Source: an uncultured Ectothiorhodospiraceae bacterium
GTDB lineage: Bacteria; Pseudomonadota; Gammaproteobacteria; Nitrococcales; Halorhodospiraceae
NCBI GenBank assembly: GCA_913055575.1
Contig: CAJXLI010000003.1
Span: 1-43,132 of the forward strand
Direction of reading: 5' to 3'
DNA length: 43,132 nucleotides
Below are positions 15,426 through 36,253 of the stretch, one piece after another. A program made the translations under genes and the position numbers. Positions within the stretch are counted from its first letter, which is position 1. Each line of letters opens with the position of its first letter. The notes beneath the pieces were generated by a model. It was not told the DNA's origin and searched no databases. It worked only from the letters and a program-made list of their open reading frames with translations.

Positions 15426-18400
15426 TCACCGTCCGCCGGCTGGCGGGTCCGCGCGGCCGGTCCACCGCTGCCAGCGCTGCGCCGCGGCCCGGTACAGCCA
15501 GCCGCCCTCCTGGCGCTTGGTCAGGTCGTGCAGGACGCGGCTGGCGCGCTCATAGCTGATCCGCTCGGCGACCATGTCGCGGTAGACGCGCTCGGCCACC
15601 CGCCGCCGGCGCACGGCGTCCCCGGCATCGAGGAAGGACTCCAGGAGATCCAGGGCGCGCCGCCAGGGGCCCGGCGGCTCGCCGCCGGCCGCGGCGCCGC
15701 CGGCCTGGTCCGGGCGCGCCGCCTCGGCCGCGTCCCGGATGGCGCACAGGTAGGCGTGGCGCACGTCGCTCTGCATCTCGGGGCGGGCCATGGCGTCCGC
15801 CACGGCCGCCTGCACGGTCTCGTAGGTCAACGCGCCGTGCTCGCGGAAGGCGTGCAGGCGCCGCAGGCCCTCCGCGGCCGCCTGCGGCTCGGGCGAGACC
15901 AGCCGCTCGCTGGCCGCGTACGCCTCCGCCCACGCCTGCCAGCGGTAGACGAAGTCGAGCCCGGCCCCCTTGATGTTCTGGATGCCCATGATGCGGTTCA
16001 GATGCCCCGGCGGGGTCACCGCCGTCAGGCGCTCGATGATGCCGTCGCCGGCGGCGTGGCTGTCGTGGATGACGACGAGCTTGTCGCGGAACGCCGCGGC
16101 CCACCAGCGGCGGAAGGCGTCGTCGAGGGCCGCGTCCGGGCCGCTGGCGCGGGCGAGCCGCGCCTGGAGATCCCTGTAGGCGTCCCGCTGCCCCCGCCAG
16201 CGGCGGACGTGATCGACGATCGACGCGGCGTGCGCCACGCCGTCCCGGGCCAGGGCCTCGTGGAGGCGCTCCGGCTCGTCCAGCAGCTCGAGGTAGGCCT
16301 GCGCCCCGCCCTCGCCCGGCAGGCACGCCGCGAGCTGCCCGGCAAGCTCGCCGTCGTCGCGGACCTGGCGCAGCCACGCCGCCGCCGAGGCCAGGATCGC
16401 CTCGGGCCCGCGGTCATCGGCGGCCCCCTGCGGCCAGAGGCTCAGCCCCGCCAGGTACGCCGCCAGCGCCTCCTCGATATAGCCCGTCAGCCCGGCCAGA
16501 TTGGTGCCGATGAGGACGTGCCGATCGGCGGACAGGTCCTGGACGAGCATGCTCGCGAAGACGCGCGAGCGTGCCACCCGGTCGGCGCGGTTGTTCACCA
16601 CGGTGCTGACCACGACCCCGGGCTCGCCCGCCGGGTCCTGGCGGTCGAAGCCCATCCGCGTCCAGTTGGCGAGGGTCCCGTACCGCTCGTTGGCGGACAT
16701 GCCGTTGACGAACTGGAGCCGCCGGCCGCGCACGGGGGCCGCCGGGAAGGTCTTCAGCACGCCCAGGTCCGGGACGACCCGGTCCGCCATCTCCTTGAGG
16801 GCGAAGTCCTGCGACACCCCGAGCTCCTCGGCCATGCGCATGACCAGGGCGATGTTGGCGGGGTGCTCCTCGTAGGGGAAGCGCGCCAGCACGTCCTCGG
16901 TGAGCAGGCCCGGCTCCCGCCAGCCCACGGCGGTGAAGCGCGTGCCCTTGGCGGCGCAGGCCTCGCGCAGGATCGGCGCCATCTGCTGCTCGCTCGTCAC
17001 CAGCCGCGAGCGGCGCGGGATGAAGGCGGTCATGGCGTAGGGGATATCCCGCCCGGCGGGCCCCTGCAGGTCCTCGTGGTCCGGGTACGTGTTGGTCAGC
17101 GTCGAGAGGTCGTCGCGCATCCACTGCTCCTGCAGGATCCGCGCGTAGGACGGCGTCAGCCCCATGCACTCCCACAGGAAGACGTCGCTGCCGAGCCGGT
17201 CCGCGAGCCGCGCGACGGCGGCCTGCTCCCAGATCGTCGCCTTGTCGTAGGGCCGGAAGAGGAAGAGCTCGCGCAGGGGCCGGTGCGCGGGGGCGTACAG
17301 GAACATCGCCTCGCAGCCGGTGGTCTTGGAGAACACGGCGTAGCCGAGGGCGTTCATCAGCCCGGCCTTGAGCCGCTCCGTGCCGGACTTGCCGCGCGTC
17401 CCCCAGCCGCCGAGGACCAGCGGCAGCCGCCGGCGGCTGCGCACCATGCGCCGGAACAGCTGCGCGCGCCGGAGGAGGAACAGGCCGCCCACGCCGACGA
17501 TGAACACGAGCAGGTCGCGCAGGCTGTTCTGGTAGACGGACAGGAAGTACGTCTGGAAGCGCTCGAGGAGCGTGCGGTCGAGGCCCAGGTACGCGAGGGG
17601 ACCGGCGGCGAAGAAGCGGGCCGCACGCGGCTCCGGCCGGGCCCCGCCGTAGCCCTCGAGCCGCACGCCGATGCGCGCCTGGCGTAGCATCTCCGCGTAG
17701 CGGCTCGCCGGCACGGCGGCGACGTGCGTCCAGTTCCGCGCCTCGGCGAAGCGCTGGAAGGCCCCGGTCAGCCGCAGCTTGGCGCGGAGCGACGGCACGA
17801 GCCCGCTGGGCGGCTCCACCGTCGTCACGCCCTCGGCCGTGAACAGCCTGAGCCGCCGGCCGGCGTCCACGGCCGATACCACGTGGTCGGGCAGCGGCAG
17901 GTACGGGCGCCACCCCTGCTCCTCCTCGATATGCAGCGGCTCGCCGGGCACCTTCGTCGGCGACACCTCGGCGAGGACGGCGGACGGCGCGAGCAATGCG
18001 CCGTGGAAGACGCGGCCGCGGGTGTGGCTGTGCCCCTGCCGCTTGTCCGAGGAGGGGCGGCGCATCTCGTAGAGGAAGCGCCAGAGCCGGAACCCGGCCC
18101 GCTCGCCCCGGCGCAGCCACGGACCCAGCACCCCCCAGCCGAGCTCGTAGCTGAAGTCGTCCTGGGCCAGGACCGCCAGGACGCGGCCGATCTGGGCCTC
18201 CGAGTAGCCGCGCACGAGGCGCCGCGGCAGGCGGCACCACCGGCCGTCCCGGAGCCTGGCCGCGCGCGCGCCGAGGCTCGCCGCCAGACCGCCCAGCTCC
18301 GGATCCCGGCGGACCCGGATGCGCTCGGCCGCCATCGCCGCCTCGCGCCGGACGGCGGTGGCCGCCGCGCCGGTGTGCAGCGCGTCCAGCGCGCCCAGGG

Positions 18401-19595
18401 CCAGCTCCGCGCCGCCGCCCGCCGCCCCAGCCGCGGCATCGCCCGCCTCGACCGCGTCGACCGCGTCACCGGCGAGCGTATCGACCAGGACCCGCAGCAC
18501 GAAGGGGTCGGTCTCGCGCCGGGTGGCCTCGGTGAGCACCGCGACGCTGGCGTGCGCCTCCTCGGGGCGCGTCTCGCGGCCCAGGGCGTGCGCGGCCGCT
18601 GCCCGGACCTGCGGCGTGGCGTCGTCCAGCAGGAGCTGGCGGCCGAGCGCCCGGCCCCGCTCGCCCTGGAGCCGGGGCAGCTCCCGGCAGACGCCCTGGC
18701 GGACGTAGGGGCTCGGATCCTCGGCGGCCGCCTCGACGAGCGCCAGGACCTCGGGATCCTCCGTCTCCGCGTACAGCTGCCGCAGGAGGCCGACCAGGCG
18801 CGCGCGCACGAACAGGTCCGGATCGGCGCCCGGCGCCGCCAGGCGCTGCCGGGCCACGCCCTTGAAGCCGCTGTCCGGGATCGTGGCCAGCAGGGCGAGG
18901 GCCTCGCACTGGGCCCAGACGTCGTGCTGCGGGTCCTGGGCCAGCTGGTACACCAGCCGCGCCGCGTTGTGGCCTACCAGCGGCTCGCGGCGCTCGACGG
19001 GGATCTCCCGGAGCCCGCGCACCAGGGCGGCGAAGGCCGCGCGCGGCACGCGCTCATCGCCGCCGTAGTAGAGGGCCGCGCCCAGGGTGCGCTCGAGATC
19101 GAGCCGTCGCCAGAGCTCGGTACGGGCATCGGTCGCCGCTGCGGCGAGGGCTGCGTCGGCGACGGCGCCGGCACGCTCGGCGAGCGTCGCCGCCCGCTTC
19201 TCCCCCTCGCCGATGCGGTTCCGGCAGCGCTCGGCGACGGCGTCGAGGTCGAGCCAGCGCCGGAACGCCAGCCGATCCCCCACGGCCACCCGCTGGCTGG
19301 TGTTGAGGGCAGCCACGAAGTCCAGGGTCACGCGGCGCCGCTCGGCGGCCGACCGGGCGCGCGCGTGGGCCGACTCGAAGCGGGCCAGCGTCTGCTGGAG
19401 CTCGGCGATGCGCGCCAGCGTCTGCTCCAGCTCCTGGCGGATGAAGGTCAGCACCGCCACCGGATCGTCCAGGTCGGCCGCCGCCGCGTGGGCCCGGTCC
19501 ATCAGGGCGTAGTCGACGGCCGCCTCGTAGCGGCGCCCGGCGCGCGCCCCCGGGCCCTCGGCGGGGCCCGCCCGTCCAACCGTGCCGAGCCTCAT
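15426..19595 (-). CDS. CapB/PgsB-like amide ligase with a large N-terminal extension
   Basis: 1389 residues. The ligase domain (about 725-1130) aligns by eye with Bacillus PgsB, the ATP-dependent ligase that links glutamates through gamma-carboxyls. Matching elements are P-loop GTRGKSGTERL (732-742), SKTTGCEAMFLY, WECMGLTPSYARILQEQ, NTYPDHEDLQGP, FVNGMSANERYGTLANWTRM and NNRADRVARSRVFA. PgsB is only about 390 residues. Here some 700 residues precede it: a coiled coil (about 55-110), HEAT-like helical repeats (about 200-450), a mixed region with a basic, Ser/His-rich loop, and one membrane helix (about 700-718) just before the P-loop, where PgsB also has its membrane segment. About 250 helical residues follow. 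ATG 19593-19595 overlaps the upstream stop by 4 bases (ATGA), with GGGAGG before it. It is last in the operon. The polymer made is unproven. Confidence 0.8.
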   Translation of the reverse strand: MRLGTVGRAGPAEGPGARAGRRYEAAVDYALMDRAHAAAADLDDPVAVLTFIRQELEQTLARIAELQQTLARFESAHARARSAAERRRVTLDFVAALNTSQRVAVGDRLAFRRWLDLDAVAERCRNRIGEGEKRAATLAERAGAVADAALAAAATDARTELWRRLDLERTLGAALYYGGDERVPRAAFAALVRGLREIPVERREPLVGHNAARLVYQLAQDPQHDVWAQCEALALLATIPDSGFKGVARQRLAAPGADPDLFVRARLVGLLRQLYAETEDPEVLALVEAAAEDPSPYVRQGVCRELPRLQGERGRALGRQLLLDDATPQVRAAAAHALGRETRPEEAHASVAVLTEATRRETDPFVLRVLVDTLAGDAVDAVEAGDAAAGAAGGGAELALGALDALHTGAAATAVRREAAMAAERIRVRRDPELGGLAASLGARAARLRDGRWCRLPRRLVRGYSEAQIGRVLAVLAQDDFSYELGWGVLGPWLRRGERAGFRLWRFLYEMRRPSSDKRQGHSHTRGRVFHGALLAPSAVLAEVSPTKVPGEPLHIEEEQGWRPYLPLPDHVVSAVDAGRRLRLFTAEGVTTVEPPSGLVPSLRAKLRLTGAFQRFAEARNWTHVAAVPASRYAEMLRQARIGVRLEGYGGARPEPRAARFFAAGPLAYLGLDRTLLERFQTYFLSVYQNSLRDLLVFIVGVGGLFLLRRAQLFRRMVRSRRRLPLVLGGWGTRGKSGTERLKAGLMNALGYAVFSKTTGCEAMFLYAPAHRPLRELFLFRPYDKATIWEQAAVARLADRLGSDVFLWECMGLTPSYARILQEQWMRDDLSTLTNTYPDHEDLQGPAGRDIPYAMTAFIPRRSRLVTSEQQMAPILREACAAKGTRFTAVGWREPGLLTEDVLARFPYEEHPANIALVMRMAEELGVSQDFALKEMADRVVPDLGVLKTFPAAPVRGRRLQFVNGMSANERYGTLANWTRMGFDRQDPAGEPGVVVSTVVNNRADRVARSRVFASMLVQDLSADRHVLIGTNLAGLTGYIEEALAAYLAGLSLWPQGAADDRGPEAILASAAAWLRQVRDDGELAGQLAACLPGEGGAQAYLELLDEPERLHEALARDGVAHAASIVDHVRRWRGQRDAYRDLQARLARASGPDAALDDAFRRWWAAAFRDKLVVIHDSHAAGDGIIERLTAVTPPGHLNRIMGIQNIKGAGLDFVYRWQAWAEAYAASERLVSPEPQAAAEGLRRLHAFREHGALTYETVQAAVADAMARPEMQSDVRHAYLCAIRDAAEAARPDQAGGAAAGGEPPGPWRRALDLLESFLDAGDAVRRRRVAERVYRDMVAERISYERASRVLHDLTKRQEGGWLYRAAAQRWQRWTGRADPPAGGR

Positions 19596-22500
19596 CGATC
19601 CGCCTCCCAGCCCGGCGCCCGGGCCTCGCGCAGGGTACGGAAGGCCTCGGCATCCGGCCGGAAATCGCGGAGCAGCCGGCCGTTGCCCAGCTCGTGGCGC
19701 CCCAGGGTCTGCCCGCCGCCGAAGTGCCACGTCAGGAACAGGCCGAACGAGGTCCGGGAGCGGCGCACATCGCGGCGGATCCGGCCGGTCGCCTCCACGC
19801 GGTCGCCCGCCGGGCGCCACAGGTCGTAGCCCACATCCAGGCCGAGGCGCCCCGTGTCCACGGCGTCGCCGCGATCGCCGTCGGCGAGGTAGCGCGTCGC
19901 CCGGTAGGAGAGGTCGAGCTGCACGCCCCCCAGGAACTGCCGGAGGCCGGCCTCGGCGTAGACGTTGTCGGGATCGCTGAGGCCCAGGTCCGCATTCGTC
20001 CGCCCACCGAGGCGGCCGTAGAGGGTGGTGTCCAGGAACGGCCGGTGCTCGATGCCGGCCCGCAGGCCCCAGCCGACGGGGTGGTCCGCCTTGTAGCGCG
20101 TGAAGACGTCGCTGTCGGCCGTCTCGCTGCCGGGCAGGCCGGCGTCCAGGGTCAGGTGGCGCGCGAAGGCGTCCAGGCGCCCGCTGAGCCAGGTGCGCTC
20201 GGCGACCTGGCGCCGGTGGCGGGCCGCGGCGCGCACGGTCAGCGCGGCCTCCGGGCCCTCGGCCTCGGTGCGCTGCACGAAGGCGCTGCCCCGCAGGGTC
20301 AGATCCAGGGGCCAGCCGTCGGCGGCGCCGAGCACCCGGTCCGGGAACAGGACGCGCGCCGTGCCGCCGAGGGTGGGCCGGCCGTCACCCCGCAGGCGCA
20401 AGCGCAGGCCCCCCTGGTCGAACCGATCCGCCACGGCGTCGTAGCGGCGCCGGTCGAGGCGCAGCTCTAGGAAGCCGTCGCGGTCGCCCGTCCCGCCGGG
20501 CTCGTCCTCCACCTGGTCGCGGAGGCGGTAGCCGCCGCCCACGCTGGTCGTGCCCTCGCCCTGGCCATGGAGCGGGCGCTCGCCGAGCGGCGCCGCCGTC
20601 TCCGGCACGCCCTCGACCGCCAGGGCGCGCTCGGGCGCCTCCTGCGGGCGGCTCAGCTCGTAGCGCGGGGCGCTCTCGGGGACCGCCCCGCGGTGGCGCA
20701 GGGCGTAGACCCGTACCAGCGCCTCCGAGCGGCCCGCCTCCGGGGTCACGCGGACCCGGGACTGATCCGCGGGCACCTCGCGGTAGGCGCTCACGATACC
20801 GTCCTCGCGGTAGCGGTCCACGCGCACCAGGGCCGGCCCGTCGACGGCGAAGCGGGCGGGCTCGGCGCGCGTGGCCACCTGGTACGACCGCTCGACCGGC
20901 GTGACGAGCGGCTCCAGGCCGTCCTGGCGGCGCTCCTGGACGGAGGCGATCAGGTAGCGCTCCTGGGTCGGGCGCTCGACGCGGAGGGCGATGGTGTGGC
21001 GGCCGGGCCCGATAGCCACCGCCACGCGCCGGCCGCCGGGCGGGACCTCGGCGCTGCGCCAGGGGCCGTCGTCCAGGCGGTAGTCGAGCGTAGCCGGCGG
21101 CTCGGCCGGGCGCGTGGGCATGTCGACGCTGCGCAGGTCGAGCACGAGGGTCGTCGCCTGGCGGTTCACGAAGTCGAGATAGAGGCGGCCGGGGCCGGAG
21201 AGCACGTGGTCGTTGCCGTCGAGCCGGCCCAGGAACGGCGTACGCGCCCGGAGCTGCGGGCTCTGCGGCTGCCAGCCCGCCACCTCCACCGTGCGCACGC
21301 CCGCGCTCGCCGCCACCTGCTCGACGCGCTCCCAGCCGAAGTACGGGCCGACCATGCCGCGCAGGCGGGTGAGCAGCGGCGAGGGATCGCCGCTCAGCGC
21401 CCGCGCGTAGATGCGCCGGCCGAGCCCGGGGCAGGCGCCGTAGGGCGCAGGGCACTGCGCCAGGGCGTCGGCGAGCGCGACCGCCGGGTCCTCGGCGGGC
21501 GCCAGCGCCACCCCGCCGGGCAGGGCGGAACCGGGGTCGTCGGGCAGCGGTGCCGCCAGGCCGGCCTCGGTGCCGCATACGCGGCGGACACGGCCGGAGG
21601 CCGGATCCGCCACGTCGACCTCGGCCCGGCAGGCCGCCGGCCCGTCCCGGTCCCGCTGCTCGAGCCCGGCGGCCATGACGCTCGGCCACGGCTCCGGGAG
21701 GACGGGCAGGCGCAGCGACGGCCGGCGCCACTCGACGCGCACGAGCATCGGCCGGTCGGGGGCGACGGTCACGCGCCCGGCGGTGCCCTCCAGCGCCACG
21801 GTATAGCGATTCCCCGGCCCCACCGCGGCGGCGCCGCCGAGCGGCACCAGGCCCGCGGCGGGCCCCGTGGCCGTCACCGGCAGCCGCCGCGTGCGGCCGC
21901 CGGCCGCCAGCCGGACCCAGCCGGACGCGTCCCGGGCGTCACTCGCCATCTGGAGCCGGAACGTGAGCCGCAGCTGCCCCGCCGGCGCCGTCAAATGGAC
22001 CGGCTGCTCCGGGGTCGCGAGGGCCATCGTGACCCGGGTATCCCGCCTGAGCGCACGCAGGGTGCGCGTGCCGGCGGCCCGGGAGACGAGCCGCTGGGCG
22101 GGCGCCCAGGCCCGGGGCCCGGGGTGGTCCTGGGCCCAGGCCGCCCAGGCGGCGGGGTCCGGCGGCGTGGCGGGGTCGCGGAGGTCGTCGGCCACCGCCT
22201 GCCCCCGCTGCAGCGCCTGCGCCCAGGGCGCGTTCGCCGCGTGCGCCTGCAGGATCTCCTGCGCCCCGGCCGTATCGCCGGCACGCAGGGCCTCGAGCGC
22301 CTCGAGCCGGGCGGCCCGGGCCGGCTCCAGGCGCTCCCCCGCGCGCGCCGCGGCGCGCGGCCAGCCGCCGGCGTAGAAGGCGCGGGCGCGCGCTGCATCC
22401 GGCACCGCCCCGGCCGGCAGCAGGGCCGCCAGGTCGCGTGCCAGCGCCTCCTGGCCGCGCTCCAGGAGCAGCTCCACAACACCCCCCAGCGGGGCGAGCT

Positions 22501-24829
22501 CGTCGGTCCGGAGCGCCTGGGCGACGTGGGCGCCGATCCACACCCCGCCCCCCTGGTCGGCGCCGCCCAGCGTCTGGCGCAGGCGCTGGAACGCGCGATC
22601 GCGCATGGACGGGTCATCGCTGTACAGGTGGAAGCCGCGGAGCAGCCGGTCCGCCAGCCCCGTGGCGCCGACCTGGCGCAGGGCGCGGATGCGGTCCATC
22701 TCGGCCTCGCGCCAGATCGCCCCGCCGGCGCGGCCGGCGAGCGTTCCCCAGGCCTCGGCCGCGGCCGCCCAATGGCCGTCGGCCTCGTAGCCGGCCGCCC
22801 GCCGCGCAAGCGCCCGCACATCGCGGCCGGTCGACCCCTTGCCCGGTGCCTGGAAGCGGTGGCCGCGCTCGTGGATCCCCACCGCGTAATCGGCGTAGCG
22901 GGCAGCGAGGAAATCGGCGAGCCGCGTCCAGTGGGCGGTGAGGGCCTCGGCGAACGGACTGTCGAGGCGGGACGGGTCCTCGCCCGCGACGCGGCGGCGC
23001 AGCTGCGCCCGGAACACCTGCCGCGCCGCATCGGGGCCGCCGAGGGCCTGGACCGCATGGGTGTAGGCGCGCTCGTCCAGCTCCAGGGCGTGCGGCTTGC
23101 GGTACGCGATCCCCACCGGCAGCCCCGGCCCCGAGCGGTGCTCGACGGTCACGCGCCGGACCGCCCGCGGCAGCTCGACGGTCGCCACGGCGCTGCGCAC
23201 CAGCGGCGCGGAGGTGCCGAGGGCGCTGAAGCGCGCGCCGAGCGTGCCCAGCAGGCCGCCGGCGGCAGGCCCGGCCCGTCCCTCCGGCGTCAGCTGGCGC
23301 AGGGCGGCCATGGCCGGCGCGGCCTCCGGCGCCGGCGCGGCGGGGGCGCCGGACGGCGTGATGCGCACGCGCCGCGTGGGCGCGCTATCGAAGTGCAGCG
23401 CCAGCGTCACCGGCCGGTCCAGGCGGCCGCGGGCCGCGTAGAGGCGGAGCTCGGCCGGGGCCTCGCGCTCCGGCAGGCGGTAGTGCAGGCGCGCCGGCGC
23501 GGTGCCGCCCAGCGCGCTGAGCGTCTGCGTGCGCAGCGCCGCGGCGCGGGCGGGGACCTCGTCGGTGGTCATCACGGGCCGCTCCTGGGGCCGGGCCAGG
23601 GGCCCGCGCAGCCCCCCGGGGCGGGCATAGACCGTGGACCAGGCCGCCTCGCCCGCATTGCGGGGCATCAGGTCGCGCCACGAGCTATGGCCGCCGCGGA
23701 GGTCCGAGGCGGCGCGGCGGACCGCGTCGGGGAACGGCGTGTCCTCGGCCTGCGCGCGCAGGGACGCCGCTGCGCCCAGGCCCGCGTCGGCCTGCCGCGC
23801 CGTGCGCAACCGGGCGCGCCAGGCGCGCGCCAGGCCGGGCACGGTCGTGGGGTCGTCCCGGATGTCGTCGCCCGGCCCGGTCGTGGCCAGCTCGCCGTAG
23901 AGGTCTCCAGGATCGGCGATCCAGTTCGCCGGGCGCGACAGCAGGTCGTCGTCGGCCGGGCGCCGCCGCACGCGCAGCAGCGTGCGCGCGCTGGCCTCGA
24001 CGGTGACCGTATGCTCCCCTTCCGGCACCTGGAGGTACGCCGTCTCGGCAGTGCTGACACGGGCGATGCGCCCGTCCAGCCGGGCCACGGCGCTGCGCTC
24101 AGTCCGCGTGCGGCCGCGGTAGACGCGCTGGCGCTGGCCGTCGATCCCCATCACCAGCCGGTACGGGCTCTGCAGGTCGGCGGACGGGCGGCGCGCCAGG
24201 CGGCGGTGGCGGAACGCCAGGCGCGTCGGCCCCGCCACCTCGATGGCAACGCGCTCGCCCGGCTCGAGCTCGCGGACGGCGGCGCGGCGCGCACCGATCC
24301 GCAGCCGGTGCCCCGGATCGGGCGTGATGTCGTAGCGGTAGAGCCGCTGCGTCGGCACCGGCACCGTCCGCGCGTGGAAGGCGGCGAGCCGGACCGGCCC
24401 GGACGCCGGGGCCTGCACCCGGGCGAGGTAGGCGTCGTTACCCGGGGCCGGCACCGCCCGGTGGCCGTCACCGCGCGGCTCGGGCTGGGCCGTGACCCAG
24501 GCGGCACCGTCCTGGGACAGGGCCACGCGGAGCCCGGCGAACGCGTCGGAATCGGCATCGCCCCGGTCGCGGAGCAACAGGTCGGCGCCGCCGGGCAGCA
24601 GCAGCGTCACCGCCTGCCCTGCGTCCAGGCGGAGCACCCGGTCGCCGCTGTCCGCATGCCCCGCCGCAGGGGGGCGGACCCAGGGGCGATCCGCCAGGCG
24701 ATCCCAGCGCTGCTGGGGGGATTGGCCCTCGTGGAGCCGGAACTGGAGCTCGTCCAGCTCGGCGCTCGCCCCGAGCGCAACCACCAGGGCGAGCAGCGCG
24801 ACGACCGCCGCCGGGATGCCCCACCTCAC
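19592..24829 (-). CDS. Very large helical-repeat and beta-barrel protein, candidate outer-membrane polymer exporter
   Basis: 1745 residues. GTG 24827-24829 overlaps the upstream stop (GTGA) and opens a clean signal peptide (GIPAAVVALLALVVALGASA). Beta-rich modules come next. A helical, TPR-like stretch (about 650-890) is rich in Ala/Arg pairs such as LARRAAGYEADGHWAAAAEAWGTLAG, and more beta modules follow. From about residue 1430 to the end come alternating strands with aromatic girdles (FLELRLDRRRYD, YAEAGLRQFLGGVQLDLSYRATRYL, SFGLFLTWHFGG), typical of a barrel. Signal peptide, repeats and barrel is the plan of PgaA, BcsC and PelB, which carry polysaccharides across the outer membrane. A similar job for the CapB/CapC product is inference. 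A roughly 40-residue tail after the last strand is odd for a barrel. No family name recognised. Confidence 0.66.
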   Translation of the reverse strand: MRWGIPAAVVALLALVVALGASAELDELQFRLHEGQSPQQRWDRLADRPWVRPPAAGHADSGDRVLRLDAGQAVTLLLPGGADLLLRDRGDADSDAFAGLRVALSQDGAAWVTAQPEPRGDGHRAVPAPGNDAYLARVQAPASGPVRLAAFHARTVPVPTQRLYRYDITPDPGHRLRIGARRAAVRELEPGERVAIEVAGPTRLAFRHRRLARRPSADLQSPYRLVMGIDGQRQRVYRGRTRTERSAVARLDGRIARVSTAETAYLQVPEGEHTVTVEASARTLLRVRRRPADDDLLSRPANWIADPGDLYGELATTGPGDDIRDDPTTVPGLARAWRARLRTARQADAGLGAAASLRAQAEDTPFPDAVRRAASDLRGGHSSWRDLMPRNAGEAAWSTVYARPGGLRGPLARPQERPVMTTDEVPARAAALRTQTLSALGGTAPARLHYRLPEREAPAELRLYAARGRLDRPVTLALHFDSAPTRRVRITPSGAPAAPAPEAAPAMAALRQLTPEGRAGPAAGGLLGTLGARFSALGTSAPLVRSAVATVELPRAVRRVTVEHRSGPGLPVGIAYRKPHALELDERAYTHAVQALGGPDAARQVFRAQLRRRVAGEDPSRLDSPFAEALTAHWTRLADFLAARYADYAVGIHERGHRFQAPGKGSTGRDVRALARRAAGYEADGHWAAAAEAWGTLAGRAGGAIWREAEMDRIRALRQVGATGLADRLLRGFHLYSDDPSMRDRAFQRLRQTLGGADQGGGVWIGAHVAQALRTDELAPLGGVVELLLERGQEALARDLAALLPAGAVPDAARARAFYAGGWPRAAARAGERLEPARAARLEALEALRAGDTAGAQEILQAHAANAPWAQALQRGQAVADDLRDPATPPDPAAWAAWAQDHPGPRAWAPAQRLVSRAAGTRTLRALRRDTRVTMALATPEQPVHLTAPAGQLRLTFRLQMASDARDASGWVRLAAGGRTRRLPVTATGPAAGLVPLGGAAAVGPGNRYTVALEGTAGRVTVAPDRPMLVRVEWRRPSLRLPVLPEPWPSVMAAGLEQRDRDGPAACRAEVDVADPASGRVRRVCGTEAGLAAPLPDDPGSALPGGVALAPAEDPAVALADALAQCPAPYGACPGLGRRIYARALSGDPSPLLTRLRGMVGPYFGWERVEQVAASAGVRTVEVAGWQPQSPQLRARTPFLGRLDGNDHVLSGPGRLYLDFVNRQATTLVLDLRSVDMPTRPAEPPATLDYRLDDGPWRSAEVPPGGRRVAVAIGPGRHTIALRVERPTQERYLIASVQERRQDGLEPLVTPVERSYQVATRAEPARFAVDGPALVRVDRYREDGIVSAYREVPADQSRVRVTPEAGRSEALVRVYALRHRGAVPESAPRYELSRPQEAPERALAVEGVPETAAPLGERPLHGQGEGTTSVGGGYRLRDQVEDEPGGTGDRDGFLELRLDRRRYDAVADRFDQGGLRLRLRGDGRPTLGGTARVLFPDRVLGAADGWPLDLTLRGSAFVQRTEAEGPEAALTVRAAARHRRQVAERTWLSGRLDAFARHLTLDAGLPGSETADSDVFTRYKADHPVGWGLRAGIEHRPFLDTTLYGRLGGRTNADLGLSDPDNVYAEAGLRQFLGGVQLDLSYRATRYLADGDRGDAVDTGRLGLDVGYDLWRPAGDRVEATGRIRRDVRRSRTSFGLFLTWHFGGGQTLGRHELGNGRLLRDFRPDAEAFRTLREARAPGWEADR

Positions 24830-25764
24830 GGCGCCGCCTCCAGGAGGCAGCGCCGGAGCCGGGCCTGCAGGGCGGGCTCTTCGAGCACGCGGCGGCGCAG
24901 CTCGCGCACCATCTCCACGTGGACGAAGCGGCGGAAGCCGATCCGCCGCAGCGCGGCGGCGTTCCGATTCGTGGTGGCGCCGAGCTCGAAGACGGACTCG
25001 CCGTAGCCGAGCACGACCGCGTCGAGCGCGCTGTCCAGGCACCGGTACACCGCCCGCGCCGGCCCCTGGAGCCGCCGCGTCCCGCTGGAGACGATCACCT
25101 CGGCGCGGCGCCCGGCCGAGGTATCGCGGTGGCCGCGAGCATAGCCGTGGAGCTGCACGACCGCGCCGTCGGGGTACGCCTCGGCGAAGGCGAGCGTAAA
25201 GGCGTTGAAGAGGCTGACATCCAGGTGCGCCACGTCGGAGCTACGATCGCTGCGGTCGTCCGGCGCCCACCGCGGCACGGTGTTCCAGGCCGCCGCGCGG
25301 AAGCCGCCCGCCGCGACAAGCTCGGTAGCGATCTCGCCGGTATCCAGGTCCTTGAACCGGTGCGGCGCCTGGAGGAGGACGTCGCTGGCGTCCGAGACCC
25401 CCTGGTTGAGGAGGTAGAAGCCGCGCCCCCGGACCTCCGCCGGCGGGTCGGAGATGGCGTGCACCCTGCCGGTGCCGATCCGGACCGTCCGCGCCACGAG
25501 GCCGAACGGCTCCAGGGCCGCGGCATCCGGCTCCGCCTCGCCCGCCAGGAGCCGGCGGAATACCGTCCGCGCCTCCTGCATCGTGCGCCAGGCGGGCGCC
25601 TGGAAGCCCGCCTCGGCCTGCACCGCCTCGAGCGCGGCCGCGAGCGGCACGGTCCGGCCCTCCTGGTCCTCGTCCTCGGCGCAGGCGGGCGCGCCGGCGC
25701 CGGCGATGGCGATGGCGAGCACCCCCCCCAAGATGCCCCCGGTGACCCCGTTAGCGCGCCTCAT
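24826..25764 (-). CDS. Periplasmic hydrolase-like protein, candidate polymer-trimming peptidase
   Basis: 312 residues. A signal peptide (to about APACA, 29) sends it to the periplasm. The mature part has polar motifs spaced like a zinc amidase/carboxypeptidase: APHRFKDLDTGEIA (His135, Asp139, Asp141, Glu144), NTVPRW, SSDVAHLDVSLFNAF (His180), VVQLHGY (His206) and a late FVHVEM (Glu284). This recalls the N-formylglutamate amidohydrolase, M14 and PghP-type polyglutamate hydrolase folds: two metal ligands early, a later His, a catalytic Glu near the end. That comparison is by eye. Two degenerate copies of the same domain are fused to the CapC-like protein encoded upstream. The start ATG lies 14 bases inside the preceding gene. 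Cleaving or editing the operon's polymer is the favoured role. Confidence 0.62.
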   Translation of the reverse strand: MRRANGVTGGILGGVLAIAIAGAGAPACAEDEDQEGRTVPLAAALEAVQAEAGFQAPAWRTMQEARTVFRRLLAGEAEPDAAALEPFGLVARTVRIGTGRVHAISDPPAEVRGRGFYLLNQGVSDASDVLLQAPHRFKDLDTGEIATELVAAGGFRAAAWNTVPRWAPDDRSDRSSDVAHLDVSLFNAFTLAFAEAYPDGAVVQLHGYARGHRDTSAGRRAEVIVSSGTRRLQGPARAVYRCLDSALDAVVLGYGESVFELGATTNRNAAALRRIGFRRFVHVEMVRELRRRVLEEPALQARLRRCLLEAAP

Positions 25765-28192
25765 CGCCAGCCCCCCGGCGGCTTACACCGCGCGCGTCGC
25801 TGCGTCCAGGCCTCGTCCTCGAGAGGCTGAGGTACGCCTCGCGCTCACCCGCGAGGCGCACCTCGACAGGGTAGCGGCCAGGCGGCAGATCGGCACCCAG
25901 CTCCAGGAAGAATCGCCGCGCCTCGCCGACCGTGTCGGCAGCGCCCAGGACGGGATAGCCCGCTCCCGGGGCATCGACGCGCACCTCGTACCGCCGGTGC
26001 GGGAGCGTCAAGCTGTCGTGCGGCGTGAGCCCGGCCGGCCGGGCCCCACCGACGGTCACCTCGACGGCGCGCCGCCCCGCGCTCGGCAGGACCGGATAGA
26101 GACGGAAGGACAAGAGCTCGGCCCCCTCGCTGGTCTTCTCGTACATGAAGCGGGTCGTCCCCGGCCGGAGCCGGTTGGCCAGCCGCAGGCCGAAGGGCCG
26201 CGCCGCGCCGGCGACGTTGGATAGGTAGAAGCGCGCCGCGGCGCCGCTGTCGATGCGGATCCGGTGGCGCCCGCGCGTCACGGCAGGCAGCGTCAGCCGC
26301 CCCGAGGCCGCGCCGAGGCGGCGCTCGAGGACCCGCTCGCCGTCGACCGTGACCCGGACGGAGGCGCGGCGCCCGGCATCGTGCCCGGCGAACACCAGGC
26401 GCGGCCGTACAGGGCGCGGGGCGGCCGCGTCGATACGCACGCGCCGCGTCTCGCCGGTCGGCAGCGGCGTATAGGTCGTGGCCAGCGCCTCGGGCCGCAC
26501 GGCCTCGTCGCCCGGCCTCGGCGTGAGGATCCGGCGCGCCGACCAGGCCCCCTCGGGCCGATACGCCTGCCAGTCGTAGTCGCCGGCAGCGATCGCCGGA
26601 TCGATCTCGGGGGGTCGCGCCTGGACCGCGACCGTCGATGTCGCCTCCGGGGTCGTCGCCACCTCGGCCGGCGGGAGGTAGAACCAGCTCCGCCGATCAC
26701 GCAGGGTGTCCGGCCGGGCGAAACGATCACCCGGGACGCGGACGGTCCGCCGCAAGCCGTCCGGCCGGTTGAACACCGCCGCGTGGACACGCGGCGGCCC
26801 CGAGACGCGCACGGCGGCCACCTCGGGCGGCAGGCGGAAGTAGAGGCGGCGTGGCTCGCTGATCAGCCGGTCCGCCTCCTCGCCCCGGAGCCGGTCGTAG
26901 GGCGAGGCGGGCCCGGCGGCCTGGACATCGATGCGCCTGATGACGGCGCCCGCGTCGTCGAGCAGCGCCACGCGGGCCGGGCCGGGCGCTACCCGCGCCC
27001 CGTCGGGGGCGAAGCAGGCGCAGCGCAGGTCGATGCGCAGCGGGGTCGGCGCGCCGTCGACGTGGCGCACACGCCAGCGCGGCTCGGCCGCGGCGCTGAA
27101 GACCCGCACGACGGCCGGATCCAGCGCGGGCGCGGCCGCCTCCGCATCGCCCTGGGGGAACAGGCGGGCGACGGCGGGGACGTCGCTCTGCAGCTCGAGG
27201 AGCCGCCCCTGCCACGTCCCCTCGATACGGACGGTCTCCGCCTCCCAGGGCGCAGCCACACGGCGCACCTCGCCCGGGCGATCGGCGAACACCCGCACGC
27301 GCGCCTCGCCGGCGGCCTCCTCCAGGGCCGTGAGCTGGATCTGGGCGGCGGCGCCCGCCTCCGGCAGCTGCACCGTCGCTCGCCGGTGGGGGCCGACGCG
27401 CACGCCCTGCGGGGTCACGGGCGGCACGATCGGCTCCACCTCGCTGCTGTCGCGGATGTAGAGCGTGCGCTCCACGTAATCGCGACCCGGCACCCCGGCA
27501 GGGCCGATACGGTGCCAGCGCACCGCGGCGAGGTGGCTGCGCTCGGTCCGGGTCAGCAGCCCGGCCGGATAGACGTTGCCCTCGGCCAGGCGGGTGCGCT
27601 GCTCGCCGCTGAGCCGCGGCCAGCGGGCGGCGACCTGGGCGCCGCTCAACCGCTCGGGGATGTAGAGCCTGGCGTTCACGGTAGTGACCTCCGGCCCCAG
27701 CACCGCCGCGCGGAGCCGCAGCCGGTCGATCCGCGGAGACTCCGGCAGGCTCAGGACGGCCAGCTGGCTATCCGTGGGCACGGCGTCCGATCCCGCGTAC
27801 GCCTTGCCCGGGCGCGTCCCGCCATCGGCGGCTGGATAGCGCGTCACGCCCGTGCGGAAGTGGTGCAGGCGCTCGAAGACGACCTCCCCCGCCTGATCGA
27901 CCCCCTGCACCTCGACGGCGAAGCGTAGCGGCGCCGAGCGATCCGGCTGGACCGCACCCGGGGGCACATCGCCGTGCACGAGCAGGCGTACCCGCGGCAC
28001 GGGCCGCGGCAGCGGGAAGCGCGTCCAGGCGTCCCGATCCAGCTGGTACGCCGTGCTCGTCCGCCCCTCGCCCTGGGGCAGCAACCCCGCGCCACCGGCA
28101 CCGGGCAGGGCGGCGTAGATCCCGTAGCCGAGGGCCGCTACGGCCGTGACGATCACGGCGACGACACTGATGTGGCCGATCCGGCGTAGCAC
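25751..28192 (-). CDS. Membrane-anchored beta-rich periplasmic protein, function unknown
   Basis: 813 residues. A single N-terminal membrane helix (about 8-30, ISVVAVIVTAVAALGYGIYAAL) is followed by a long periplasmic region that is almost all beta strands, with no catalytic motif found. Several segments look like repeated sandwich modules of the kind that bind carbohydrate or scaffold envelope machines. Strands such as YFRLPPEVAAVRVSGPPRV resemble modules in the 1745-residue exporter candidate (FAVDGPALVRVDRY). That suggests shared ancestry or a joint complex bridging the two membranes. The start is GTG 28190-28192, three bases after the capC-like stop, with GGGAGGA upstream. The 3' end overlaps the hydrolase gene by 14 bases. 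A periplasmic adaptor role is inference. Confidence 0.6.
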   Translation of the reverse strand: MLRRIGHISVVAVIVTAVAALGYGIYAALPGAGGAGLLPQGEGRTSTAYQLDRDAWTRFPLPRPVPRVRLLVHGDVPPGAVQPDRSAPLRFAVEVQGVDQAGEVVFERLHHFRTGVTRYPAADGGTRPGKAYAGSDAVPTDSQLAVLSLPESPRIDRLRLRAAVLGPEVTTVNARLYIPERLSGAQVAARWPRLSGEQRTRLAEGNVYPAGLLTRTERSHLAAVRWHRIGPAGVPGRDYVERTLYIRDSSEVEPIVPPVTPQGVRVGPHRRATVQLPEAGAAAQIQLTALEEAAGEARVRVFADRPGEVRRVAAPWEAETVRIEGTWQGRLLELQSDVPAVARLFPQGDAEAAAPALDPAVVRVFSAAAEPRWRVRHVDGAPTPLRIDLRCACFAPDGARVAPGPARVALLDDAGAVIRRIDVQAAGPASPYDRLRGEEADRLISEPRRLYFRLPPEVAAVRVSGPPRVHAAVFNRPDGLRRTVRVPGDRFARPDTLRDRRSWFYLPPAEVATTPEATSTVAVQARPPEIDPAIAAGDYDWQAYRPEGAWSARRILTPRPGDEAVRPEALATTYTPLPTGETRRVRIDAAAPRPVRPRLVFAGHDAGRRASVRVTVDGERVLERRLGAASGRLTLPAVTRGRHRIRIDSGAAARFYLSNVAGAARPFGLRLANRLRPGTTRFMYEKTSEGAELLSFRLYPVLPSAGRRAVEVTVGGARPAGLTPHDSLTLPHRRYEVRVDAPGAGYPVLGAADTVGEARRFFLELGADLPPGRYPVEVRLAGEREAYLSLSRTRPGRSDARGVSRRGAGDEAR

Positions 28193-28195: not shown

Positions 28196-31100
28196 TCAAT
28201 CCTCCCGGCCGGGCGCCAGCGCGCCGCCGCGGGCGCGCACGAAGGACTCGACGCGCGACGCGCCGAGCGTATCGGTGCCGACGCGCGTGATCGACCACGG
28301 CGTCCCCGGCGCCAGGCTCGCCGCCAGGGCCAGCTCGTCCGCCCCGGTCCACACGAGCAGGAAGGACTGGCGGGTCTCCGGGTCCACGCGGCGCTCGTAG
28401 CGGTACGACGGCCACCGCTGCCGGATCTGCGCGAGCGCCAGGATATCCCTGGACGCGGCGTACTGCCGGACCGCCGCCACGAGCCCGGGATCGGGCGGCG
28501 CGGCCAGGGGCACGCCCGCCAGGGAGGCGCTCACCCCGGCCCGGGTCTCGGGCATATCGAGGGCGACGAAGTGGGCCGCCTCGAGCGCATCCGCCGTCTT
28601 GTCCGTATAGCCGGCGCGCAGGGCGGACGAGACCCAGGCCACCAGGAAGGCGTCGTCCTCCGCCTGGTCGAGGTAGGCGGCCTGCGGCGTCCGTCCCACG
28701 TCCAGGCCCGCCACCGCCGGGCTGCCGTCCGCGAAGGCGACCCCCTCGCCGTCCGCCAGCAGGTCGACCAGGTAGCGCTGCTCGGCGGACAGATCCCCAC
28801 GACGGGTGGCGCCGTCCGCGGTGGCGATCACCACGCGCGGCTGCGCCTCGGCGCCCGCCCGCGGGGTGAAGCCCCGGACCTGCACCCCTGTGAAGGCCGC
28901 ACTGCCGCTCTCCCGGTAGAGGACCTGGCTCACCAGGTTGAAGGCGTTGGCCGCGTTACTGCGCCGCAGCACGTCGGCGCGCCGCTCGGGCACCGCCCGG
29001 GGGTGGGCGCCGGCTACCAGGAGCGCCCGGGCCCGGCTGCGCCGGAAGAGATCGCGCGCCGTGGCCAGGGTCCCCGGCTCGGCGAGCGGCCGCGGCGCCT
29101 GGATGCCCAGCGGCGCGGCCGCTCCGACCCGGAGCACGAAGGTCCCCCACGACCGGCTCCCGCCCCCCTCCTCGGCGAGGACGACGAGCTCGTGCTCGCC
29201 GTCGCTGTGGGACAGGAGCTGGTAGCCGACGGCATCCGCCGCGGAGCGGATGCGGGTCAGGGCCCGCCGCGCCGCCGGGGTCCACGCGCCGTCCCGGAGG
29301 CCGGTCTCGGCGACCTGCAGCAGCGGCTTCAGGACCTCGGTATCCAGGTAGAGCAGCTCGGCCAGGCTGGGGGCGCGGTAGGCGCCGCTACCCTCGGGCG
29401 CCACCGCGCCCGCGCCGTCGAACAGGGCCGCGAGGCTCCGGCCCGCCACCTCCGGTAGCGGGCCGGACGGGACGCCGCCCGCCTGCCCGTCCCGCGCCGC
29501 CAGCAGCCGGGCGACCCCGTCCGGGGTAACGAACAGCTCGCCGAAGCCGTGCCACATCGACGCCCGCTGGACGTTCTGGCCGGGCCCGCGGGCGAAGCGC
29601 ACGTCGAGGCGCGGCAGCAGGCCCTCGAGCTGCTCCGCGGAGACCCCCTCGGGCAGCCTCGACTTGACGTACAGGGCCTCCCCGGCCGGGGCGTCTTCGG
29701 CGCCCGGCGCGCCCCGCAGCTGGATCACGTTGCGCACGGCGGCCGCCCGGTGGAACGCGTGGAAGGCGGACTGCCGGTGGCGGAGCGGGTCGAGCCCGGG
29801 CGTCGAGCGCGTTGACCGCGCCGACCGGCTGCTGCCGGCCAGGATCATCACGCGGGCACGCTTGGCACGGTAGAGGCTGAGCCCGGCCTCGGCCAGCTGC
29901 GGGGTCTCCAGCGGGTCCGGGATCTCGAGGACGAGGTCGGTGGCCGGCCCCGTCCGCACGATCAGGCTGCTCCAGGCGCGCCCCGGCCGATCATCGATCG
30001 CGGCGAGGTGCGTCTCGTCGAGCCGGTGGAGCCGATACCCCGTCCTGGCGAACAGGCGCCGCAGGCGCTCGAGATCGACCGTGCCGTCGCCCCGGGCGTA
30101 GTCGATCAGCGCCTCGCCGGCGCGCTGCAGGTCAGCGACCTCGGCCGGCGTGGGTCGGGTCAGCGCTTGCTCCAGCCCGGCCCCGTACGCCTCGATCGCC
30201 GCCCGGTCGACGTAGTCCGCGGGGCTCGGGCCGCTGGCGACGGCGGGCGCCTCCGACCCGGCAGCGCCCTCGGCTCGCTGTCCCACTTCCGGCATGAACG
30301 TCAACGCGAACCCCAGGACGCTCGCCAGCGCGACGCCGGTCAGCGAGGTCTGGAGCGTCGCCCGGGTCAGGCGCGCCGGGATCGCCTTGTCGTGCATCTT
30401 GATCGCGAGCAGCGTCGACAGGAGGTAGCCGAAGGCGAAGTAGTCCGTCACCTTCACAGCGGGGGCGAGGATGGCCAGCCCCCAGCCGAGGGCGAGCTTG
30501 TAGGCGAAGCCGACGTTGAAGAAGACGAACAGCTTGCGCGCGCCCTGCACCGAGATCTTCGCGAAGACGGGCAAGGACAGCAGCAAGGCCGCGAGCCCGT
30601 AGATGATGAACGCCTCCACGAACGACGCCGCGACCTTCTCCGGCTGCCACCACTGCAGGGCGATCAGGGCCGGGATCAGGATGCCGCTGAAGTCCCAGCC
30701 GTAGATGAGGTTCATGCGGGAGGCCAGGAACGCCGTCACGACCAGCACGATGTAGGCCTTCGGCGTCGCCAGGAGCGACGAGGCGAGCTCGGCGTACATG
30801 AACCGCAGGTCCGACATGCGGAAGTTGGTGAACTCGATGAGCCCGTAGCGCACGATCAGGTAGGTCAGGCCCACCGTCACCACGGTCGGGAGCACGCTGC
30901 GCAGCAGGCCCGGCTTCCAGAACTGGTTCGCCATGAGGGCGACGATGACCAGGCCGAAGCTGTGCAGCTCGTTGCGGTAGTCGAAGGCGATCCCGAGGGT
31001 GTCGTTCAGCGCGGCCCCGAAAAGCGGCAGCAGCCACGCGTCGAAGAGCAGGCGCACCCCGATCGAGGCCAGGATGATGGCGAAGAAGCGATCCCGGCCG

Positions 31101-31360
31101 AAGAAGCTGTTCCAGGCGCCGAGCGCCGAGAGGCGCTCGGACAGCGTGTACACGATCAGGTAGGTGGCCACGGCCTCGGCCGTGATGACGGCCACCGCCC
31201 AGGGCTTCACCAGCAGCAGCGGGACCAGGTAGCCGGGGACCACAATGCCCGACAGCACCCAGCCCAGGCGCAGGTTGAGGAAGCACAGGACGAAGACGCT
31301 GATCCAGGTCGTCGTGACGACCGAGCTGACCAGGCTCCCCTCGGGGAAGATGGGCAGCAC
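28196..31360 (-). CDS. CapC/PgsC-like polyglutamate synthesis membrane protein, doubled and fused to a degenerate hydrolase region
   Basis: 1054 residues. The N-terminal 175 residues follow Bacillus PgsC: RLGWVLSGIVVPGYLVPLL, then LIVYTLSERLSALG, FFAIILASIGVRLLFD and SFGLVIVALMANQFWKPGL. A second, looser copy covers about 190-370 (YGWDFSGILIPALIALQWW, FVFFNVGFAYKLALGWGL). PgsC itself is about 149 residues. From about 375 on, the protein is periplasmic. It carries two segments (about 460-545 and 735-825) resembling the operon's hydrolase but with key His residues lost (LHG becomes LRG and VRG). PgsC is the membrane partner of the PgsB ligase, so pairing with the CapB-like protein is expected. 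The start is GTG 31358-31360 behind GGGGGGA, 12 bases after the receiver gene. Confidence 0.78.
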   Translation of the reverse strand: MLPIFPEGSLVSSVVTTTWISVFVLCFLNLRLGWVLSGIVVPGYLVPLLLVKPWAVAVITAEAVATYLIVYTLSERLSALGAWNSFFGRDRFFAIILASIGVRLLFDAWLLPLFGAALNDTLGIAFDYRNELHSFGLVIVALMANQFWKPGLLRSVLPTVVTVGLTYLIVRYGLIEFTNFRMSDLRFMYAELASSLLATPKAYIVLVVTAFLASRMNLIYGWDFSGILIPALIALQWWQPEKVAASFVEAFIIYGLAALLLSLPVFAKISVQGARKLFVFFNVGFAYKLALGWGLAILAPAVKVTDYFAFGYLLSTLLAIKMHDKAIPARLTRATLQTSLTGVALASVLGFALTFMPEVGQRAEGAAGSEAPAVASGPSPADYVDRAAIEAYGAGLEQALTRPTPAEVADLQRAGEALIDYARGDGTVDLERLRRLFARTGYRLHRLDETHLAAIDDRPGRAWSSLIVRTGPATDLVLEIPDPLETPQLAEAGLSLYRAKRARVMILAGSSRSARSTRSTPGLDPLRHRQSAFHAFHRAAAVRNVIQLRGAPGAEDAPAGEALYVKSRLPEGVSAEQLEGLLPRLDVRFARGPGQNVQRASMWHGFGELFVTPDGVARLLAARDGQAGGVPSGPLPEVAGRSLAALFDGAGAVAPEGSGAYRAPSLAELLYLDTEVLKPLLQVAETGLRDGAWTPAARRALTRIRSAADAVGYQLLSHSDGEHELVVLAEEGGGSRSWGTFVLRVGAAAPLGIQAPRPLAEPGTLATARDLFRRSRARALLVAGAHPRAVPERRADVLRRSNAANAFNLVSQVLYRESGSAAFTGVQVRGFTPRAGAEAQPRVVIATADGATRRGDLSAEQRYLVDLLADGEGVAFADGSPAVAGLDVGRTPQAAYLDQAEDDAFLVAWVSSALRAGYTDKTADALEAAHFVALDMPETRAGVSASLAGVPLAAPPDPGLVAAVRQYAASRDILALAQIRQRWPSYRYERRVDPETRQSFLLVWTGADELALAASLAPGTPWSITRVGTDTLGASRVESFVRARGGALAPGRED

Positions 31361-34395: not shown

Positions 34396-34415
34396 ACGTG
34401 CCTAATACGTGCCTA
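34394..34415. repeat. Tandem 11-bp repeat over the CHASE2 gene start
   Basis: Two exact copies of ATACGTGCCTA lie head to tail. On the coding strand the unit is TAGGCACGTAT, and the downstream copy supplies the AGG ribosome site and the first bases of the ATG. A recent slippage duplication or a two-site operator would both look like this. Confidence 0.55.
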
Positions 34416-34478
34416 GCGGTTACGCCGGATATGGCGCCGAAGATAGCCGACGCGGCCCCGCCGAGGCCAGCGGTGCCC

Positions 34479-34769: not shown

Positions 34770-34783
34770 GTTCCACCCGTGCG

Positions 34784-36253
34784 TCAGGGCCCTTCTTGGA
34801 CGTGGATGCCATCCTTGCGAATGTAGAATTCCTGGATGCGCTCCGAGGTCGGCAAGCCGCGCGCCTTGACGACATTGAGCAAGCGGTGCAGCTGCCCCCC
34901 GCGCTCATCGCGGCGGAGCTTGATCCAGGTATCGACGATCGAGGAGACATCCATCGTGCTCATCCCGTCGCTGTAGTCCGGGAGCAGCTCCGTGGCGAAG
35001 GCCGTCACGCCCTCGCGCTTGAGCATGTAGAACAGCCGCAGGAGCATCTCCTTGCCGTACTGCACGGAATGGCGATCCGCGAGCGCGCTCGCCGGGTCCA
35101 GGATGACGATATCCGGCTGAGAGGTCTGCACCGAGCGCATCACGCGCAGCAGGTGCGCCTCCCAGCCAAGCTGCACGGCGAGCAGGGGGTGGAAGATGAG
35201 CCGGCCGCTGCCGCCCTCCTCCGCCAGGTGCTCGAGCAGGTCGATCCCCGCGGCGCGCTGGTTGCGCAGGATCTCCTTGGTCGCCTCCTCGAAGCTCAGG
35301 TAGAGGACCTGATCCCCCGCGCGGCAGGCGGCGTCGGCGAAGGCGGCGGCGAAGGTCGTCTTGCCCGTGCCGGACTGGCCCGAGAGCATCAGCGCCGAGC
35401 CACGGTACGGGCCGGCACCGCCCATCATGGCATCCAGCCCGGAGACGCCGGTGCTGTGGCGGTCCGTAGGGGCGCCCCCCTCCAGGCGCGTCCCGGTAAC
35501 CGGGGCGATGAAGATCCCCTCCTCATCGAGCAGGAAGGGGAACTCGTTGGTGCCGTGGCCGCCGCCGCGGCGCTTGAGGATGCGCAGCAGCCGCGTCATG
35601 CGCCGATGCTCGATCTCCTGGCTGAGGAGGATGACGCAGTCGGCGATGTACTCCTCCAGCCCGTAGCGCCTGGAGAAGTCCGTCTGCTCGCCCGAGGTGA
35701 TGACCGTCGTGGCATCGCGCTCGCGGATCCAGTCGAAGACGCGGGTCAGCTCGGCGCGCAGGCCCGTCTGGGCATCGAAGCTCTCCTCCATGCCGTCGAT
35801 GGCGTCGATGACGAGCAGATGGGCGTCCAGCTGGTCCAGCGCGTGGCCGAGCCGCGCCAGCACGGCGGTCAGCTCGACGATCTCGCCGGCTACCAGGTCG
35901 GCGCGGCTGGGCCGCATGTCGAGCACCCGTGCCTGGCCCGCGTCGATGTGCTCGCCGAGCGGGAAGCCGAGGGACTCGGCGTGGCGGATCAGCGCCTCCG
36001 GGCCCTCGTCGAAGGTCACCAGCACCCCGGGCTCTCCGCGGGCGAGCCCACGGCAGAGGAACGTCAGGGCGATGGCCGTCTTCCCTGTACCCGGCCCGCC
36101 GCGCATCAGCGTGGGCTGCCCCCGCGGGAGACCGCCCTCGAGCACGAAGTCGAGCCCGGCAATCCCCGTGGGCGTCGTGCCGGCGTCGGGCCGGGGCTGC
36201 GCCGCCTGGCCGGGCAGGACCTCCGGGTCCGCCGGCTTTTCCTCCTGTGCCAT
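34784..36253 (-). CDS. kaiC: KaiC, double-domain clock ATPase/autokinase
   Basis: 489 residues, two RecA-like domains. CI has Walker A GGPGTGKT (52-59) and catalytic TFDE (Asp82-Glu83). CII has Walker A GQSGTGKT (292-299) and FEEATKEIL. Near the end, STMDVSSIVDTW aligns with the cyanobacterial phosphosites, placing Ser437-Ser438 at the Ser431-Thr432 positions, so autophosphorylation is plausible. The C-terminal tail is short, and the KaiA-binding A-loop region is not obviously kept. It heads the nine-gene operon. ATG 36251-36253 has AGGG about ten bases upstream. The likely role is to time or gate the downstream polymer machinery through KaiB and the sensor/receiver pair. KaiC homologues outside cyanobacteria can serve stress roles instead of a true circadian clock. 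Confidence 0.93.
   Translation of the reverse strand: MAQEEKPADPEVLPGQAAQPRPDAGTTPTGIAGLDFVLEGGLPRGQPTLMRGGPGTGKTAIALTFLCRGLARGEPGVLVTFDEGPEALIRHAESLGFPLGEHIDAGQARVLDMRPSRADLVAGEIVELTAVLARLGHALDQLDAHLLVIDAIDGMEESFDAQTGLRAELTRVFDWIRERDATTVITSGEQTDFSRRYGLEEYIADCVILLSQEIEHRRMTRLLRILKRRGGGHGTNEFPFLLDEEGIFIAPVTGTRLEGGAPTDRHSTGVSGLDAMMGGAGPYRGSALMLSGQSGTGKTTFAAAFADAACRAGDQVLYLSFEEATKEILRNQRAAGIDLLEHLAEEGGSGRLIFHPLLAVQLGWEAHLLRVMRSVQTSQPDIVILDPASALADRHSVQYGKEMLLRLFYMLKREGVTAFATELLPDYSDGMSTMDVSSIVDTWIKLRRDERGGQLHRLLNVVKARGLPTSERIQEFYIRKDGIHVQEGP

Follow-up and report, generated by a model that had tools for sequence, protein, structure and literature searches.

Nine minus-strand genes in the window (the whole 43,132-nucleotide stretch of DNA analysed here, from a draft genome that is 84% complete) form two things, not a fused module: a tight, conserved cluster of seven cap genes at 34395-15426, and a kaiC-kaiB pair that is seen beside it in this genome alone and is most likely a chance or lineage-specific neighbour. 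The cap genes quite likely encode a Gram-negative, envelope-spanning amide-polymer secretion system of the CapB/CapC (PgsB/PgsC) type, with a ligase, export, trimming and CHASE2/REC control; the polymer that this seven-gene machine probably synthesises, trims and carries across both membranes would resemble polyglutamate, and the machine itself is, as far as could be found, widespread but undescribed. From gene content, gene order, homology, two predicted folds and the loss of catalytic residues we infer the polymer, the direction of its transport and its regulation. Most of what is known of polyglutamate machinery comes from Gram-positives, and to our knowledge the route of such a polymer across an outer membrane is an open question; conserved in several phyla, the cap cluster supplies concrete candidate parts for that crossing, and the named strains among its carriers make the machine directly testable.

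Table 1. Positions in the window of the kaiBC pair, the seven cap genes and the gap between them, with the basis of each assignment.
Feature	Coordinates	Strand	Basis
kaiC, double-domain KaiC, 489 aa; second copy in genome	34784..36253	-	family profiles, motifs, tree
kaiB, 96 aa	34479..34769	-	family profiles
83-bp gap, kaiB to cap operon	34396..34478	.	pattern scan for promoter/terminator
CHASE2-PAS-HATPase-like sensor, 882 aa	31747..34395	-	domain profile, alignment
stand-alone receiver domain (REC), 124 aa	31373..31747	-	domain profile; phospho-Asp kept
CapC-like protein, 1054 aa, two CapC and two degenerate hydrolase-like domains	28196..31360	-	
anchored 813-aa protein	25751..28192	-	N-terminal membrane anchor from sequence
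zinc-hydrolase-like protein, 312 aa	24826..25764	-	predicted fold, invariant residues
1745-aa barrel protein	19592..24829	-	signal-peptide-like N-terminus, predicted C-terminal outer-membrane barrel
CapB/PgsB-like Mur-ligase-type amide ligase, 1389 aa, N-terminal HEAT repeats	15426..19595	-	

An ORF check of the window returns all nine minus-strand ORFs at the coordinates that the first-pass annotation had given them, with lengths taken from the starts at the overlaps named there. The gene ends had been described as near-touching; this stands for the named overlaps and for gaps of 3-14 bp elsewhere, but it passes over the kaiB-CHASE2 junction, which at 83 bp is the sole sizeable gap among the nine genes. 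kaiC and kaiB are 14 bp apart, and the cap-gene gaps, in order from CHASE2/REC, are -1, 12, 3, -14, -4 and -4 bp; this tight packing points to one operon, with kaiBC set off from it by the 83 bp. No promoter or terminator is detected in this gap by a pattern scan that covers the sigma-70 type only and is weakly informative in a window of ~70% G+C.

No fewer than 80 genomes, spread over several phyla, carry relatives of the cap cluster. Run over 84,980 species genomes, a six-sequence CapC-like profile returned 250 relatives; the analysis used the best 80 of these, each with up to 10 kb of flank; by record titles the taxa are Gamma-, Beta- and Zetaproteobacteria, delta-type sulfate reducers, Campylobacterota, Acidobacteriota, Planctomycetota and Verrucomicrobiota, and named carrier strains include Pseudidiomarina, Vreelandella, Lysobacter, Desulfocicer and Legionella. 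Among these best 80 of 250 loci, the six core genes are colinear in all 33 that have every one of them in view, and pairwise neighbour order along the core genes is kept at 66/66, 69/69, 53/54, 43/43 and 38/40 loci; capC is adjoined by the gene of the 813-aa protein in 69 of 69, and REC is seen at 33 of the 80. Neither kaiC nor kaiB is in view at any of the same 80 loci, where 57 have a complete CHASE2 gene, 39 of those with 5 kb or more of visible upstream sequence. Nine further neighbourhoods from whole genomes (some of the genomes shared with the scan) are likewise free of kaiBC, and kaiB is absent altogether from 38 of the 40 carrier genomes tested; the other two do not have it near the cap locus: in the first, kaiB is on a contig much larger than that of the cap locus, and in the second it lies ~100 kb off on the cap contig. 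The linkage of the seven cap genes is beyond chance and that of kaiBC is not. The first-pass annotation had proposed an operon-level fusion of a KaiC module to the polymer genes and had named kaiC/kaiB unlinked in relatives as the observation to set against it; that observation is the one made at the best 80 of 250 loci, and with the carriers that have no kaiB it leads us to reject KaiC-cap fusion as a general module. The window pair is also an extra, lineage-specific copy, separated from the cap genes by 83 bp. The case illustrates how, with a single genome to hand, a clock-gene pair may be taken for a component of a module.

The kaiBC pair itself is intact. In a profile search KaiC and KaiB exceed the PRK09302 and PRK09301 cut-offs, and the window KaiC is a double-domain KaiC, encoded with KaiB, in which Walker A/B, the catalytic Glu and the SS phosphosite region are preserved; a degenerate kaiC is rejected on these motifs. 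Congeners have one closely related kaiBC each, which in the examined ones is flanked by fmdB-like and aspS genes, and their KaiC is 63-74% identical to the window KaiC. The host genome also contains a native pair at this usual genus site, in the order fmdB-kaiC-kaiB-aspS on another contig (C110), to whose KaiC the window KaiC is 75% identical; in the tree the window KaiC falls within the genus clade (support 100/99) on a branch of its own. Judged by sequence, the window kaiBC is a duplicate of the native pair or a copy acquired from a congener, and its likeness to the native copies stops at the gene ends.

The flanking genes hcp and ettA match those of the nearest congener (94% and 99%, respectively) in the same order, and the contig therefore belongs to the genus; with the second kaiBC at the usual genus site, this match leads us to reject a chimeric or contaminated contig. 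The hcp-ettA interval of the nearest congener holds other genes, with neither cap nor kai genes among them, so that the region in the window is an insertion or replacement; the PepSY gene adjoining ettA lies in the opposite orientation in that nearest relative, and this, with the lack of both kaiBC and cap there, indicates that the site has been rearranged. The CapC-like gene is found in 0 of 8 congeners and 0 of 50 other relatives searched, and in ~2% of sampled Gammaproteobacteria and Pseudomonadota; 72,556 plasmid records contain no match, and spread on plasmids is rejected. The balance of evidence favours kaiBC and the cap operon being chance neighbours, brought together by insertion and rearrangement in the variable hcp-ettA region, an account that covers the linkage alone and is compatible with a secretion system encoded by the cap genes. 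It agrees with the hcp-ettA interval of the nearest relative and its flipped PepSY gene, with the end of kaiBC likeness at the gene ends, and with a linkage that is not conserved; the same orientation and short distance of the two units count against it, as does the fact that the second kaiC and kaiB, though markedly diverged, have stayed intact, which suggests use.

The CapB-like ligase is expected from its family to be a cytoplasmic enzyme that uses ATP to link amino acids, probably glutamate, through amide bonds. The ligase domain sits behind HEAT repeats and matches TIGR04012 (PgsB) with an E-value of 5e-60, at 203.2 bits against a cut-off of 222.7; the ligases of five relatives score 159-210 bits, also under 222.7. 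Going by its sequence and the TIGR04012 rule, the window ligase is a PgsB homologue and not an equivalog. The CapC-like protein matches PF14102 at 8e-36 (123.5 bits vs a cut-off of 27) through two CapC domains of 86 and 57 bits, each above the cut-off, and fails the TIGR04011 equivalog (56.7 vs 96.45 bits); this doubled protein would be the inner-membrane partner of the ligase, conducting or supporting the chain. Its C-terminal part holds two soluble domains, which by hhalign are homologues of one another (E 2e-28) and of the 312-aa hydrolase (~99%, E ~1e-18); a separate profile search also finds the hydrolase (E 4e-6). The first His is replaced mostly by Ala in domain 1 (45/74) and by Arg in domain 2 (62/74), and the second by Arg in both (66/74 and 73/74, respectively); because the metal histidines are lost, the two domains are most likely pseudo-enzymes, and they may bind or grip the emerging chain.

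The 312-aa protein is predicted to have the fold of N-formylglutamate amidohydrolases and poly-gamma-glutamate (PGA) hydrolases, and it would trim or free the chain as PGA hydrolases do. The model (pLDDT 90) matches the N-formylglutamate amidohydrolases 2odf and 2q7s at Z 13.9 and 12.8, and the PGA hydrolases at 12.5 for phage PghP (3a9l) and 12.2 for both a second phage enzyme and YndL/PghL (5onj); all of these rank above classical carboxypeptidases. All 49 members compared share P134-H135, D139, T142, Q204, H206-G207, H282 and E284 without variation. In PghL the zinc ligands are His41, Glu46 and His102, with Glu165 considered catalytic by comparison with carboxypeptidase A (PMC6506827); H135, D139, H206 and E284 of the window protein correspond to these in order, a match drawn from their succession in the sequence and from the predicted fold. 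The predicted protein thus combines a carboxypeptidase-like fold (Z 12-14) with the His/acid/His/Glu pattern common to PghP, PghL (YndL) and the N-formylglutamate amidohydrolases; unlike PghL, it has Asp at the metal-binding Glu, and it is encoded with the synthase and not by a phage. PF05908 does not match the window hydrolase and gives one weak match (E 0.079) among the 49 members. A search by sequence for solved relatives of CapB, CapC and the hydrolase yielded none that is meaningful. The fold also fits cell-wall peptidases, and this, with its fit to the N-formylglutamate amidohydrolases, counts against the machine reading.

As both CapB and CapC score under the PgsB/PgsC equivalog cut-offs, the monomer may not be glutamate. 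It is conceivable, if doubtful, that the cluster builds a different polymer of amino acids or links amino acids to a glycan or peptide of the envelope: the scores of the window ligase and CapC, and of the ligase in the five relatives, fit such a product, and so does a hydrolase equally close to N-formylglutamate amidohydrolases and PGA hydrolases; however, the nearest characterised relatives of CapB, CapC and the hydrolase fold belong to gamma-glutamyl polymer or glutamate-amide metabolism.

In the polyglutamate-like secretion system that we prefer, the polymer would exit through the 1745-aa protein, whose last 360 residues are predicted to form a barrel of 14 β-strands (pLDDT 85). The protein begins with a signal-peptide-like stretch; its long middle has no family match, and a profile search finds no Pfam TPR match in this protein or in two relatives, the middle part being known from sequence alone. 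The best matches of the barrel model are OmpG and CymA (Z ~19), followed among exporters by BcsC (15.0), PelB (14.9) and the polysaccharide outer-membrane pore 4y25 (14.5). This better fit to the general porins than to polymer exporters counts against the machine reading, as does the draft state of the 84%-complete host genome. The predicted model is a C-terminal outer-membrane β-barrel such as BcsC/PgaA/PelB-type exporters have (Z 14.5-15.0 to the exporters), and as in BcsC, PgaA and PelB it belongs to a large protein encoded with an inner-membrane synthase; unlike these, the predicted barrel is 14-stranded and nearest to OmpG/CymA, its expected cargo is a polyamide, and it has no Pfam exporter match. 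The 813-aa protein has no Pfam or NCBIfam match and, like the middle of the 1745-aa protein, no assigned fold, which likewise counts against the machine reading; together with the long part of the 1745-aa protein it may bridge the periplasm.

The cluster shares with Bacillus PgsBCA(E)/CapBCA(D)E a CapB-type, Mur-ligase-like ligase and CapC in one operon; unlike in Bacillus, CapB is fused to HEAT repeats, two CapC domains are joined in one protein with two dead hydrolase domains, and a barrel, the 813-aa protein, CHASE2, a receiver and a hydrolase are added, while CapA (PF09587) is not found anywhere in the 84%-complete genome. The first-pass family calls hold for KaiC, KaiB, CapC and CHASE2, and for the PgsB-like ligase at a level below the equivalog; its suggestion that what looks like an envelope-spanning export set replaces PgsA/PgsE in a CapB/CapC synthesis system is borne out by the predicted barrel, the PGA-hydrolase-like fold and the missing CapA. 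Genome surveys have already recorded CapB/CapC pairs in many phyla, among them Gram-negatives (PMC5542703; PMC4497714). The 'PGA capsule' class of CapsuleFinder has CapB and CapC as its mandatory pair, present here, and is reported from most phyla; within the accessible part of that source, its model, built from the Bacillus anthracis operon, is described with no outer-membrane exporter, CapC-hydrolase fusion or CHASE2 gene (PMC5542703). A description of the cluster architecture was not found in the openly accessible literature. What is new here is the doubled CapC with two degenerate hydrolase domains, the hydrolase fold with invariant H/D/H/E, and the predicted 14-strand barrel of the 1745-aa protein.

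The CHASE2-PAS-HATPase protein seems to be a contact-acting sensor rather than a classical two-component kinase. Its CHASE2 domain is just below the cut-off in the window protein and well above it in relatives; its ATPase motifs are degenerate, and an alignment of 48 members has no conserved phospho-acceptor His at the expected helix. The receiver keeps its phospho-Asp, and the CHASE2 pseudo-kinase and this lone receiver may set the activity of the machine post-translationally. The lack of the phospho-acceptor His also weakens the idea of a Kai output kinase. Clock control of the polymer genes, with KaiBC duplicated, recruited to a place upstream of an acquired cap operon and timing either the transcription of that operon or the CHASE2/REC module, is possible but unsupported, and we regard it as unlikely: the two units share a strand 83 bp apart with no pattern-detected terminator between them, the KaiC motifs and phosphosite region are intact, and in one congener (L152) a PAS kinase gene directly follows the native kaiBC, in parallel to kaiBC-CHASE2; against this, the linkage occurs only in this genome (none of the best 80 of 250 loci, and 38 of 40 carriers without kaiB), the CHASE2 protein has no phospho-acceptor His as needed by the classical Kai output kinase, and a separate native kaiBC copy is present. 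A combined proposal, in which a distinct polyamide secretion class (HEAT-CapB, doubled CapC, PGA-type hydrolase and BcsC-like barrel) captured a duplicated KaiBC that gates the polymer by the day-night or energy cycle, is likewise improbable. The extra genus copy of kaiBC directly upstream may or may not affect cap expression. The arrangement shares with purple-bacterial kaiBC operons (kaiBC with a PAS-domain gene) the kaiC-kaiB order, the intact ATPase motifs and an adjoining sensor gene; unlike in those operons, the sensor is the CHASE2 pseudo-kinase of the cap operon and a second, native kaiBC is present.

Converging on capB, with 27 bp left to the capB 3' end, is a single fused gene for a Rieske ferredoxin domain and a glutamate-synthase-like FMN domain; it has no match within the hcp-ettA interval of the nearest congener, and among 80 other cap loci (the best 80 of 250 CapC-like relatives) just one shows a match, a weak one. 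On the kaiBC upstream side, the PepSY gene is reversed relative to ettA when compared with the nearest congener (locus L147), and this flip is a sign of local rearrangement. The CHASE2 start codon is immediately preceded by a short direct repeat, TAGGCACGTAT TAGGCACGTAT (34396-34420), and no obvious ribosome-binding site is seen in this segment.

Coordinates of features in the window
Feature	Position	Strand	PADLOC E
Rieske/FMN fusion gene	13812-15398	+	
ZorD	within 860-7333		5e-299
ZorC	within 860-7333		4e-138
ZorB	within 860-7333		1e-85
ZorA	within 860-7333		2e-53
Cytochrome-b-like and PepSY genes	36368-37674		

The second kaiBC pair of the genome, on contig C110, is flanked by an fmdB-like gene and aspS, the interval that is the usual kaiBC site of the genus. 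In other genomes, four loci (L071, L073, L088 and L093, from one gammaproteobacterial MAG and Acidobacteriota-type genomes) carry a rearranged version of the cap cluster, in which capB precedes the CHASE2 gene rather than following the barrel gene.

PADLOC identifies a complete Zorya type I anti-phage system near the window start, in the order ZorD, ZorC, ZorB, ZorA; G+C is reduced (54-61%) in the stretch holding these genes.
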